DNA of 64,000 nt, taken from the NCBI GenBank assembly GCA_947503925.1, contig CANNFQ010000003.1:1-64000 (forward strand), given 5' to 3'. Made by a program: the position numbers and the translations under genes. This DNA is from an uncultured Paracoccaceae bacterium. GTDB lineage: Bacteria; Pseudomonadota; Alphaproteobacteria; Rhodobacterales; Rhodobacteraceae. The notes below the pieces were generated by a model. It was not told where the DNA came from and searched no databases. It saw only the letters and a program-made list of their open reading frames with translations. Of the stretch, positions 8,171-62,911 are shown one piece after another; within the stretch, counting starts at the first letter, position 1, and each line of letters begins with the position of its first letter.

Positions 8171-8743
8171 ATGGTTGTTCTGAACAAGATCTACACAAAA
8201 ACCGGTGACGCAGGTGAAACCGCGCTCGGCAATGGTAGCCGCGTCGCGAAACATGCGTTGCGGGTGACATCCTACGGCACGGTTGATGAGACCAATGCGA
8301 CCGTTGGGCTGGCGCGACTGCATGCGACGGGCCAAGTGGATGTACAACTGGCGATGATCCAGAATGACCTGTTTGATCTGGGCGCCGATCTGTGCCGGCC
8401 CGATATGGAAATGGATGGCGAGGCCGAATATCCACCCTTGCGCATGTCGGATGCGCAGGTGGAACGGCTGGAGGCGGAAATCGATGCCATGACAAAAAAC
8501 GTCGAACCTTTACGCAGTTTCATCCTGCCGGGCGGGTCACCATTGGCCGCGCATATGCATCTGTGTCGTACCGTATCGCGCCGGGCAGAACGGTTGACGG
8601 TCGAACTGGCCACGATGGAATCGGTGAACCCGGCGGCGGTGAAGTACCTCAACCGTTTGTCCGACTGGTTCTTTCAGGCATCCCGGATCGCCAATGATAA
8701 TGGCAAGGACGATGTACTGTGGGTACCGGGCGCGAACAGGTAA
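8171..8743 (+). CDS. Cob(I)yrinic acid a,c-diamide adenosyltransferase (PduO type)
   Basis: The 190-residue protein matches PduO/MMAB-type ATP:cob(I)alamin adenosyltransferases, which attach the 5'-deoxyadenosyl group to cobalamin. Diagnostic motifs are the ATP-binding N-terminus KIYTKTGDAGETAL, then VTSYGTVDETNA, FILPGGS, CRTVSRRAER and KYLNRLSDWFFQASR. Adenosylcobalamin would serve methylmalonyl-CoA or ethylmalonyl-CoA mutase and ribonucleotide reductase, none of which lies in this window. An AGGGGG site overlaps the end of the HIG1 gene. A hairpin lies right at its stop codon. Confidence 0.92.
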   Translation: MVVLNKIYTKTGDAGETALGNGSRVAKHALRVTSYGTVDETNATVGLARLHATGQVDVQLAMIQNDLFDLGADLCRPDMEMDGEAEYPPLRMSDAQVERLEAEIDAMTKNVEPLRSFILPGGSPLAAHMHLCRTVSRRAERLTVELATMESVNPAAVKYLNRLSDWFFQASRIANDNGKDDVLWVPGANR

Positions 8744-8765
8744 GATGGGTTTAAATCCATCTTAC
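8740..8765. repeat. Palindrome GTAAGATGG/CCATCTTAC at the adenosyltransferase 3' end
   Basis: Perfect 9-bp arms (8740-8748 and 8757-8765) flank GTTTAAAT. The same design, GTAAGGTGGGTTTCAACCCACC, recurs at 62868-62889. Both copies lie close to a copy of the GAATC/GTCGG repeat described below. It may serve as a terminator stem, but has no T-tract. Confidence 0.6.
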
Positions 8766-8810
8766 GGGGGTTGCGTGACCCCCACCTCACGGTGATTTGC
8801 GCAGCGGTCA

Positions 8811-8920
8811 CCCGAATCAAGCGTTAATCCTTATTTTGCGGGCAAAAGCGCTGTCGGCGACGAGTTGGCAAAACGTCGGACCCTTTTGTTGGCGGGAGCC
8901 TGATTAACACGTCGCACGTT
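8811..8920 (+). repeat. GAATC/TTAA/3xGTCGG intergenic repeat, copy A
   Basis: Elements in order: CCGAATC (GAATC at 8814), TTAA at 8824, CAAAA at 8843, GTCGG-type blocks at 8853, 8864 (GTTGG) and 8875 (11-nt steps), TTAA at 8904 followed by a GTCGCACG block. The last GTCGG-to-TTAA distance is 29 nt and GAATC-to-TTAA is 10 nt, identical in the two other copies. It lacks about 12 nt present in those between the first TTAA and the GTCGG blocks. It lies between the convergent adenosyltransferase and zinc-ribbon genes, in a 280-bp gap that otherwise holds only the palindrome at 8740. Confidence 0.75.
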
Positions 8921-9023
8921 GCGAATGGGCAATAACAGCAAATGATGCATGTTCCACCCGGCCGGTAGGCCGACCGACCTTATGCGTGCGACATCGGCAT
9001 GGTGACCCAATCGCATTTGGAGG

Positions 9024-31956: not shown

Positions 31957-32418
31957 ATGTTCGAGGGTCTGCTCGCGTTTCTGCGTAATCCCGGTGGATA
32001 CGAAACACCGCTGCCAGAGGCGGATGCAGGTCATGCCATGGGCGCGCTACTGGTCCGGGCTGCAAAGGCCGACAACGACTATCTGTTCGAAGAAATCCAG
32101 CTGATCGACAAGGTACTGGGCAAACGCCACGGGCTCGACCCGGTCGAGGCTGCCAAATACCGCGCATCCTGCGAAAGGTTGGAAACGGAAATGCCCGACA
32201 CGGCAGAGATTGCGGGCATCATAAAGGATGCGATCAGCAAGGACGAACGCGAGGCCACGCTCCGGGCGCTATGGGCTGTGGTCTATGCCGATGGGATCAA
32301 ACACAGCGAAGAAGACAGGCTGCTACATCAGATCGAAGACGTAATGGGCATTCCCCCCGACCGCGCCCGCGAATTGCAGGTGGCAGCACGCGACGCGGCA
32401 CTGCCGGGCAATCCTTAA
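31957..32418 (+). CDS. TerB-family tellurite resistance-like protein
   Basis: A 153-residue all-helical protein of the TerB type: HAMGALLVRAAKADNDYLFEEIQLIDKVL, then KDEREATLRALWAVVYADGIKHSEEDRLLHQIEDVMGIPPDRA, with the paired acidic metal-binding helices of the TerB fold. Many stand-alone TerB proteins have no link with tellurite. AAGGTGGGA precedes ATG 31957; an in-frame ATG 14 codons upstream is less likely. It is divergent from the H-NOX gene and ends just before copy B of the GTCGG repeat. Confidence 0.82.
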   Translation: MFEGLLAFLRNPGGYETPLPEADAGHAMGALLVRAAKADNDYLFEEIQLIDKVLGKRHGLDPVEAAKYRASCERLETEMPDTAEIAGIIKDAISKDEREATLRALWAVVYADGIKHSEEDRLLHQIEDVMGIPPDRARELQVAARDAALPGNP

Positions 32419-32436
32419 CGGCGGCCTTAGGTTTGA

Positions 32437-32602
32437 TGCGCACGCTGCATTAAACCGGCACCACCGTGCGCAGGTGTCCGACGTTTTGCCGACGCATCGC
32501 CGACACCTTGCAGACAGGGATTTTGGGCCAAAGCCCCTGCATTAACAGACGATTCGACAAACCCGGTGTCGCACCGCCGCGCAACACCACCGAACGTTGC
32601 GC
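32437..32602 (-). repeat. GAATC/TTAA/3xGTCGG intergenic repeat, copy B
   Basis: Read on the minus strand: GCGCAACGTTCGGTGG (from 32602), GAATC (32555), TTAA (32545), CAAAA (32525), GTCGG at 32504, 32493 and 32482 (11-nt steps), TTAA at 32453, then GCAGCGTGCG. The GAATC-TTAA distance (10 nt), the TTAA-GTCGG distance (41 nt) and the last GTCGG-TTAA distance (29 nt) equal those of copy C at 62670-62838. It fills the gap between the convergent TerB-like and D-amino-acid-transaminase genes and starts 5 nt beyond the latter's stop codon. Confidence 0.8.
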
Positions 32603-32606
32603 TGGG

Positions 32607-33470
32607 TCAGACCGCGACCTTGCGGCTTTCATCCAGATAAATCTCGCGCAGACGTGCAGCCACCGGGCCCGGCCTGCCCGCACCAATGGCAGCCCCGTCA
32701 ATTTCAACGACCGGCATCACAAACGTACTTGCAGAAGTGATAAAGGCCTCATCCGCCTGCTGCGCCTCGGCGATGGTAAAGCTGCGCTCTTCCACCTTCA
32801 TCTGCGCCTCCTTCGCGAACCGCAAAACCGCGGCGCGGGTGATCCCGTGCAGGATCTCATTGCCCAGATGGCGGGTGATTATCGTATTGTTTCTAATGAT
32901 ATAGGCGTTGTTGGATGTGCCTTCAGTCACGGCACCATCCTCAACCATCCAGGCATCATCGGCGCCTGCGGCTTTGGCCATCATCTTGCCCATGGACGGG
33001 AACAGCAATTGCACCGTCTTGATATCACGGCGGGCCCAGCGCTGATCTTCGATGGAAATCACCTTGATCCCAGTCTTGGCCACTGGGCTGTCGGCTAGAC
33101 CGGGCTTGTTTTGGGTAAACAACACAACCGTCGGCTCTGTCGTCGCCGGGTCGGGAAAGGCAAAATCACGGTCGGCAGGGGCACCACGGGTGATTTGCAG
33201 ATAGACCAGACCATCAGTTATGTCATTCTTGCGCACCAGTTCCCGGTGGATGTCCAACAGATCAGGCAGGCATGCCGGATGCGGCATGTCCAACTCACCC
33301 AAGGAACGCTCTAACCGCTTGGCATGGCCCGCAAAATCAATCAGCTTGCCATCCAGAACAGAGGTCACCTCATAGACCCCATCGGCCATCAGAAACCCGC
33401 GATCAAAGACCGAGATTTTCGCCTCATCCTCGGGCACGTACGCCCCGTTAACATAAACTGTGCGGGTCAT
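32607..33470 (-). CDS. D-amino-acid transaminase (class IV aminotransferase)
   Basis: A 287-residue fold-type IV PLP enzyme: MTRTVYVNGAYVPEDEAKISVFDRGFLMADGVYEV, the PLP lysine in RRDIKTVQLLFPSM (Lys151), then DDAWMVEDGAVTEGTSNNAYII (the E-G-TSNN cofactor loop) and HGITRAAVL. The length and the N-terminal block fit D-alanine/D-amino-acid transaminase rather than branched-chain or aminodeoxychorismate enzymes. It would interconvert D-alanine, D-glutamate and their keto acids. AAGGGAG precedes ATG 33470; a longer in-frame start is unlikely. The two upstream genes encode a D-glutamate pathway, which supports the D-amino-acid assignment. Confidence 0.87.
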   Translation of the reverse strand: MTRTVYVNGAYVPEDEAKISVFDRGFLMADGVYEVTSVLDGKLIDFAGHAKRLERSLGELDMPHPACLPDLLDIHRELVRKNDITDGLVYLQITRGAPADRDFAFPDPATTEPTVVLFTQNKPGLADSPVAKTGIKVISIEDQRWARRDIKTVQLLFPSMGKMMAKAAGADDAWMVEDGAVTEGTSNNAYIIRNNTIITRHLGNEILHGITRAAVLRFAKEAQMKVEERSFTIAEAQQADEAFITSASTFVMPVVEIDGAAIGAGRPGPVAARLREIYLDESRKVAV

Positions 33471-60572: not shown

Positions 60573-62627
<2,055 letters not shown>

Positions 62628-62669
62628 TCAATGTTGACGCGCGCGTCACCCCCAAACGCAGCGTCACCG

Positions 62670-62838
62670 GCGCAACGTTCGGTGGGGTGCGCGACCGCCG
62701 TCTGATCCGCAACCACCCGAATCATACATTAACGCCTGTCTTTCATGCAAAATCATCGGTCTGCAAAGCGTCGGCGACACGTCGGCAAAACGTCGGACCC
62801 CCTGGGTACAAATCGCGGCGTTAAGACAGCGCACGGCG
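62670..62838 (+). repeat. GAATC/TTAA/3xGTCGG intergenic repeat, copy C
   Basis: Order: GCGCAACGTTCGGTGG (62670), CCGAATC (GAATC at 62719), TTAA (62729), CAAAA (62748), GTCGG at 62770, 62781 and 62792 (11-nt steps), TTAA at 62821, then CAGCGCACGG. Distances match copy B: 10, 41, 11, 11 and 29 nt between successive marks. It fills most of the 314-bp divergent gap between fadH and the desaturase, so it may overlap their promoters; the rest holds the palindrome at 62868. Confidence 0.8.
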
Positions 62839-62867
62839 CAGAGGTAAACGCCGTGTTAAGGATTGAC

Positions 62868-62893
62868 GTAAGGTGGGTTTCAACCCACCCTGC
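62868..62893. repeat. Palindrome GGTGGGTT/AACCCACC before the desaturase
   Basis: GTAA then GGTGGGTT (62872-62879), TC, AACCCACC (62882-62889). It resembles the palindrome at 8740-8765 and lies just upstream of the desaturase ribosome site (CAGGAGG, 62898-62904), so it would form in the leader mRNA. Confidence 0.65.
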
Positions 62894-62911
62894 CGGTCAG
62901 GAGGTTTGATC

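Follow-up and report, generated by a model that had tools for sequence, protein, structure and literature searches.

Three copies of one intergenic element are found in the window (here, the entire 64,000-nt stretch that was analyzed); their parts are listed in Table 1. Our own gene caller placed two of them between convergent genes and one between divergent genes, in agreement with the preliminary description, and the minus-strand neighbor of copy 1 is a 74-amino-acid zinc-ribbon open reading frame (ORF). A cross-genus model (R2) retrieved exactly three matches from the window (E = 2.4e-23, 2.2e-19, and 1.5e-13); copy 3 was among the 30 training sequences of R2, and its E value is thus not independent. 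The ordered layout that had been described as common to the copies was recovered in all three, and direct reading verified in each of them a distance of exactly 29 nt between the start of the last repeat and the TTAA that follows. The number of repeats needed correction: three had been given throughout, and copies 2 and 3 hold four, the first of which is GTCTG. A second intergenic repeat, the palindrome GTAAGATGGGTTTAAACCCATCTTAC, gave 10 pattern matches in 1.47 Mb of stretches from this genome (L184 to L260), all of them intergenic. The strict form of this pattern had zero matches within the window; by eye, variant copies of the palindrome adjoin elements 1 and 3 (about 8741-8766 and 62870-62893).

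Table 1. Positions of the three element copies in the window and of their component parts
Feature	Position	Strand	Remarks
Copy 1, model extent	8812..8932	+	R1 62.8 bits, E = 6.4e-17 in own genome; R2 46.3 bits in window
Copy 1, left arm GAATC-N5-TTAA	8814..8827	+	GAATC 8814-8818, TTAA 8824-8827; read directly
Copy 1, array of three 11-nt repeats (GTCGG, GTTGG, GTCGG)	8853..8885	+	Starts 8853, 8864 (GTTGG), 8875
Copy 1, right-arm TTAA	8904..8907	+	29 nt from start of last repeat
Copy 2, model extent	32415..32557	-	R1 93.6 bits, E = 1.5e-26 in own genome
Copy 2, upstream box GCAACGTTCGGTGG	32587..32600	-	~7 nt past stop codon of gene 32607-33470
Copy 2, left arm	GAATC 32555-32551, TTAA 32545-32542	-	Read directly
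Copy 2, array of four 11-nt repeats (GTCTG, GTCGG, GTCGG, GTCGG)	32472..32515	-	Starts 32515 (GTCTG), 32504, 32493, 32482
Copy 2, right-arm TTAA	32450..32453	-	29 nt from start of last repeat; arms pattern match 32439-32555
Copy 3, model extent	62717..62859	+	R1 92.1 bits
Copy 3, upstream box GCGCAACGTTCGGTGG	62670..62685	+	Read directly
Copy 3, left arm GAATC-N5-TTAA	62719..62732	+	GAATC 62719, TTAA 62729
Copy 3, array of four 11-nt repeats	62759..62802	+	Starts 62759 (GTCTG), 62770, 62781, 62792
Copy 3, right arm TTAA-N5-CGCACGG	62821..62836	+	TTAA 29 nt from start of last repeat

Alignments of 26 copies from this genome and of 30 mixed copies define the frame of the element, which is ~140 nt long and consists, in order, of GAATC-N5-TTAA, two AT tracts, three to five (usually four) 11-nt units, TTAA, and GCGYGCGG. 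An upstream box, GCAACGTTCGGTGG, precedes the frame in many copies of this genome; by eye, it resembles a small hairpin in some of them. The first AT tract lies ~11 nt past the left-arm TTAA, with the second ~10 nt further. Among 42 copies, the first tract was scored as T-type 29 times and as A-type 5 times, with 8 copies fitting neither class; for the second tract, the corresponding counts were 12, 24, and 6. This interchange of A-type and T-type tracts fits DNA shape. GAATC had been pointed out as a CcrM (GANTC) methylation site. Of 54 strong copies in this genome, 42 have GANTC before TTAA (41 GAATC, 1 GAGTC) and 12 lack it; across five copy sets, single departures from GAATC fell on the middle base in 3 of 8 cases, a small sample. 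A CtrA box (TTAA-N7-TTAA) was rejected on reading the alignment, in which ~90 nt separate the TTAA of the left arm from that of the right and no further conserved TTAA occurs at 7 nt. An alphaproteobacterial LexA box was likewise rejected by reading, as the units are GTCGG, GTCTG, GTATGG, GATGCAC, and others, not GTTC.

With a sequence-only model of the 26 copies (R1), 83 matches at E ≤ 1 were retrieved from the 4.75-Mb genome, of which the 79 scoring at least 21 bits were analyzed; the family therefore numbers about 80 copies in this genome. According to our hexamer-based gene caller, which assigns 87% of these stretches as coding, not one of the 79 shares more than 30 nt with a predicted gene. 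A genome-wide search with the pattern GTCGGCAAAACGTCGG, allowing up to two mismatches, gave 149 matches versus 12 for the reversed control, placing the layout proposed from three copies above chance. GAATC-N5-TTAA by itself occurred 39 times (reversed control, 11), and a pattern of the arms alone matched 29 times (reversed control, 0).

The element belongs to a family that spans many genera of Rhodobacteraceae, with dozens of intergenic copies in marine members. R1 matched 45 of the 395 Rhodobacteraceae genomes searched, corresponding to 42 of 351 genera; eight candidates were scored per genome in this search, so that per-genome counts are lower bounds. Candidatus Rhodobacter lobularis (G060) yielded 101 matches at E ≤ 0.01, with the same places seen in G350. 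In a third genus, the single 3.6-Mb contig of G297 gave 48 matches with R1 and 80 with R2 at E ≤ 0.05. An arms pattern blind to the array matched 20/395 genomes (19/351 genera), while its reversed form matched none; in one stretch per genome, the best array period was 11 in 19 of these 20 genomes and 12 in G446. All 32 weaker array-type matches in G090 (six contigs) lie on contig 1. Within the genus of this bacterium, the detected copy number ranges from at least 53 down to 0 to 9. Either the role of the element is not indispensable everywhere, or copies in the congeners with low counts have diverged past the model.

Among genera, the arms are constant and the 11-nt period is kept, while the array word differs. 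The word is GTCGGC in this genome and G060; GTCGGT in G195 and G309; GTCGGA in G119 (six copies); GTATGG and GTCTGG in G191 (one copy), G329 (three), and G432 (one); GTCTTG in G450 (one copy); ATCGGA in G208 (two copies); GCGGCAT in G313 (eight copies); GATGCAC in G263 (five copies in the arms-pattern search); and GTGCACC or GTACACC in G093 (one copy), G319 (one), and G436 (two), several of these words being supported by one to three copies each. Each array position is spelled in its own way in G215 (array words based on five copies) and G313, for example GTCGGTTTCCC, GTCCCGCCCGC, GTCGGTTCCGC, and GTATGGCA. Judging from this position-specific spelling, the units in these two genomes may not be interchangeable.

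The coherence of an array word across a whole genome was examined in one genome, G263. There, GATGCACNNNNGATGCACNNNNGATGC with up to two mismatches gave 81 matches in 54 distinct arrays, against zero in five other genomes and zero for the reversed control; 1 of 30 G263 loci lay inside a predicted gene (some arrays being counted twice). The arms are retained in part of the G263 arrays, and others are armless and carry an inverted unit, TTGTGCAG, downstream. Many of the GATGCAC arrays (L379 to L407) lack both arms; they follow a run like CATAAAAACTT and precede the inverted unit. The armless array with its inverted unit is probably a compact second form of the element. Dialects can also be mixed, in that some fourth units in this genome and in G060 are GTATGG rather than GTCGG.

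Comparison with congeners showed that the elements occupy inherited positions. Of 20 elements in the congener G015, taken from among its best-scoring ones, 18 adjoin the same upstream gene, at the same gene end and in the same orientation, as an element of this genome; for the remaining two, the stretches compared contain no ortholog. Because gene, gene end, and orientation are shared, the elements are inherited rather than hopping. The earlier suggestion that the copies did not arise by recent duplication is supported. In six low-copy congeners, 13 of 30 loci match an element of this genome in gene, gene end, and orientation, and two further loci (L265 and L269) sit at the opposite gene end. 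Six loci were read in the congener G033. Four of them (L273, L280, L284, and L285) are at matching places with the arms kept and the array changed to a GTATG-like form ending in GTATGTAC or GTACCTAC; the other two (L183 and L268) have GTCGG-like arrays, and L268 is also at a matching place.

The place of copy 3 is occupied in G015, in G033 (L285), and in G246 of another genus, always 119 to 140 nt ahead of the start of a gene assigned by Pfam to the flavin mononucleotide (FMN) oxidoreductases. An element of G060 adjoins this same gene at its other end and is therefore not at the same place. Among 27 elements of Ca. Rhodobacter lobularis compared, those at 3224254 and 2672234/2674251 adjoin a gene that also adjoins an element of this genome; neither was accepted as a shared place, the former being at the other gene end and the latter differing in orientation relative to the gene. 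In G263, 2 of 10 neighbor genes with orthologs in the compared stretches adjoin an element of this genome in the same arrangement, which is suggestive only of shared places between the two genomes.

Sequence identity in 17 ortholog pairs between this genome and G015 is unevenly distributed. Identity reaches 97.1% over the six leading bases of each unit and 85.6% over the other five, compared with 88.7% and 81.2% for the left and right arms, 71.6 to 76.2% for the two spacers, 66.1% for the downstream flank, and 84.0% for the upstream flank, in which the gene end lies. The phased array is thus the best-conserved part of the element between the two species.

We propose, with our confidence evenly divided, that the element serves, at the level of DNA, as a landing pad for a sequence-specific protein acting along the chromosome. 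In favor of this reading are the intergenic position and copy number, the inherited places, the strong conservation of the recognition sites, the constant arms around differing words at an 11-nt period, one word recurring over 54 arrays in G263, the AT tracts, and, as described below, the absence of a conserved RNA fold, the avoidance of divergent gaps, and the lean in orientation. The rigid helical spacing fits the protein binding to one face of the DNA that was suggested at the outset. Each 11-nt repeat (about one helical turn) would carry one recognition site of 5 to 7 nt, and three to five protein units would sit head to tail on one helix face. The arms (GAATC-N5-TTAA, the AT tracts, TTAA, and GCGYGCGG) might lock the complex, either by bending the DNA or through the binding of constant host factors. 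A single putative protein would read the array, and changes in its specificity would drive the array dialects. Several points count against the landing-pad reading: the joint change of dozens of sites would be hard for any binding protein, the copy number varies widely within the genus, several array words come from one to three copies, the dialects are impure, the strand bias described below is partial, and the spacing along the chromosome is near random.

The gene context of the element bears on what such a protein might do. The 79 element gaps comprise 22 convergent, 9 divergent, and 48 codirectional gaps, versus 24, 77, and 119, respectively, among the remaining gaps of ≥200 nt in these stretches (p = 1e-5 for the table); the length cutoff was not applied to the element gaps, 58/79 of which reach 200 nt. 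Divergent gaps are avoided by the element, and in codirectional gaps its two orientations relative to the genes occur 26:22. These two results support the earlier view that the element is not a simple promoter and speak against gene-by-gene regulation.

Orientation leans to the leading strand. In this genome, it follows the local GC skew in 57/79 cases (p = 1e-4). In G297, it agrees with skew-defined halves in 42/63 cases (p = 0.01), the halves having been set from 20 skew samples (2 of opposite sign) after the orientations were known; the agreement was 31/43 at a score of at least 30 bits and 12/18 at 40 bits or more (p = 0.24), and a free two-breakpoint fit gave 45/63 (permutation p = 0.055). 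A manual count in G060 gave 19/27. The bias is partial (67 to 72%) and could be mutational, with G-rich sequence being better retained on the leading strand. Spacing along the chromosome departs only slightly from random toward evenness (p values of 0.03, 0.06, and 0.16), in tests that used 63 of the 80 G297 matches, 54 of the matches on contig 2 of G060, and 20 on contig 1 of this genome. The slight tendency to follow replication, the lack of any tendency to follow codirectional transcription, and the avoidance of divergent gaps together favor a chromosome-scale role, which might be nucleoid organization, segregation, or a replication-linked function, rather than control of each neighboring gene.

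The main rival to a chromosome-scale role is a transcription roadblock or insulator at gene ends, where the bound array would stop read-through in the manner of the stoperators of L5-like phages. Avoidance of divergent gaps also counts in its favor, and convergent gaps are enriched (22/79 versus 24/220). Of the 23 upstream boxes that have the upstream gene directed toward them, 14 begin no more than 12 nt from the stop codon of that gene; the upstream neighbor is also the one that is kept between species. However, the element shows no preferred orientation in codirectional gaps, yet it leans with replication, and we regard the roadblock as unlikely.

Neighboring genes turn over unequally on the two sides of the element. 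Between this species and G015, the upstream neighbor is kept in 18/18 orthologous elements and the downstream neighbor in only 6/18, whereas across other gaps, 150 nt or longer, that served as the control, the neighbor was kept in 36/49 directed comparisons. In 7 of the 12 cases with a changed downstream gene, gene order becomes collinear again within four genes. These counts would be accounted for by a site that marks or promotes gene gain and loss, with new genes entering directly downstream of the element. We find this quite improbable. The element abuts the upstream gene and thereby leaves room for insertions mainly downstream, and the turnover perhaps reflects only where insertions have room. 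In addition, a gap may enter the control twice, making the nominal Fisher p value of 0.004 too low; among the changed downstream ORFs, two are shorter than 80 amino acids and may be false calls; and the comparison covers a single pair of species and 20 of the top-scoring elements of G015.

A nonautonomous mobile or REP-like repeat family homogenized by transposition would also be multicopy, intergenic, homogeneous within genomes, and different between them. The uneven copy number among congeners is consistent with such a family, as is the finding that most positions are unshared across genera, in the part that was compared. Against this, the congener places are shared (18/20 in G015 and 13/30 in the six low-copy congeners), and four G033 places keep the frame while the array differs. 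Given the G015 positions, with gene end and orientation matched, a miniature inverted-repeat transposable element (MITE) or transposon relic was rejected. The REP transposase domain Y1_Tnp was found in 0/5 element-bearing genomes by a search that was positive in 5/14 known genomes as a control. The 30-copy consensus, whose alignment does not include the upstream box, held no conserved inverted pairing and no predicted palindrome of the kind expected of a REP/BIME unit. We therefore consider mobility a poor explanation for the family.

An origin in phages or plasmids is unsupported by plasmid, phage, and IMG/VR searches. With copy 3, which represents the dialect of this genome only, blastn retrieved no match from 72,556 plasmid and 50,697 phage records. 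The arms pattern gave eight matches in IMG/VR, and none of the five that were read has an 11-nt array. Array patterns in the same database gave 22 matches for GTCGG and 1 for GATGCAC, of which the best scored 31.5 bits with R2, at array positions only; when 8 of the 22 GTCGG matches were read, several proved to be simple tandem repeats. Three IMG/VR loci (L420, L427, and L430) are short tandem 11-nt repeats of the GTCGG type without arms, and the sole GATGCAC match (L439) looks like a short GATGCAC array.

RNA structure had been put forward as an alternative to protein binding, and it drew no support from Rfam, consensus folding, or single-sequence folding. RNAalifold predicted 4 weak pairs (-0.29 kcal/mol) in the consensus of 30 copies, none of which was changed on both sides, and the three window copies fold like shuffled sequences (z = 0.72, -1.30, and 0.64). 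The element is not a catalogued RNA family, with zero Rfam matches at the gathering threshold in the window and zero at E ≤ 1 in positions 62600-62910. Thus, although the 11-nt period equals the helical pitch of A-form RNA as well, an RNA element (a small RNA, a leader, or the target of an RNA-binding protein) is highly improbable given these results and the interchangeable A and T tracts.

Returning to the landing-pad reading, we tentatively suggest, while thinking it somewhat less than probable, that the elements form a chromosome-wide addressing system shared by Rhodobacteraceae: a conserved frame at inherited positions, with an array of three to five sites whose recognition word has been rewritten across dozens of loci during lineage divergence, together with a coevolving putative reader. 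Dispersed chromosomal binding sites are a known kind of system. We know of no described family with this layout, however, and of no precedent for a genus-specific array word within a constant frame at inherited positions; to our knowledge, bacterial chromosomal site systems are few, and the described ones keep their recognition word across relatives. Six array strings of 16 to 18 letters gave no hit in the open-access literature searched, a corpus that mostly excludes subscription journals. If true, the proposal would provide a natural experiment in the coevolution of a DNA-binding protein and its many sites, a bacterial counterpart of a fast-evolving pair of site and reader with one dialect per genus. 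It would also reveal a new chromosome-scale function in an abundant marine bacterial group. The dialects make the putative reader findable, as its DNA-contacting residues should change with the array.

Several known systems share individual traits with the element. The sites of matS/MatP, Noc, and SlmA are short single palindromes that are often tolerated inside genes and have much the same sequence across relatives. They resemble the present family in having tens of copies per chromosome, short specific sites, and a trans-acting protein (presumed here); the family differs in its ~140-nt frame with a direct-repeat array that varies between genera. The stoperators of L5-like mycobacteriophages are asymmetric, oriented repressor sites in short intergenic spaces, with cluster-specific sequences that covary with the repressor. 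They too are numerous and group specific in sequence, but they are single sites in phage genomes, whereas the present elements are phased arrays with constant arms in bacterial chromosomes. Plasmid R1 parC/ParR and the alphaproteobacterial LexA boxes (GTTC-N7-GTTC) involve 11-bp direct repeats that are bound cooperatively by head-to-tail proteins. The 11-bp period and direct repeats recur here, as would the cooperative binding that we infer, but those systems are plasmid centromeres or a few SOS promoters, compared with ~80 intergenic copies whose repeats are not GTTC.

REPs, which are palindromes tied to a Y1 transposase (PMC2817692), are, like the present family, multicopy intergenic repeats with species-specific sequence; they differ in both traits, as no conserved palindrome was predicted here and no Y1 transposase was found in five element-bearing genomes. 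The TAACTGA heptamer direct repeats of Beggiatoaceae, reported as 169 sets with an unknown reader (PMC4679880), are likewise abundant intergenic direct repeats. They are reported to lie mostly just upstream of start codons, and the same heptamer occurs in distant phyla (PMC4679880). The present element has no link to start codons and is distinguished by its 11-nt spacing, its constant arms, and the differing words that they enclose.
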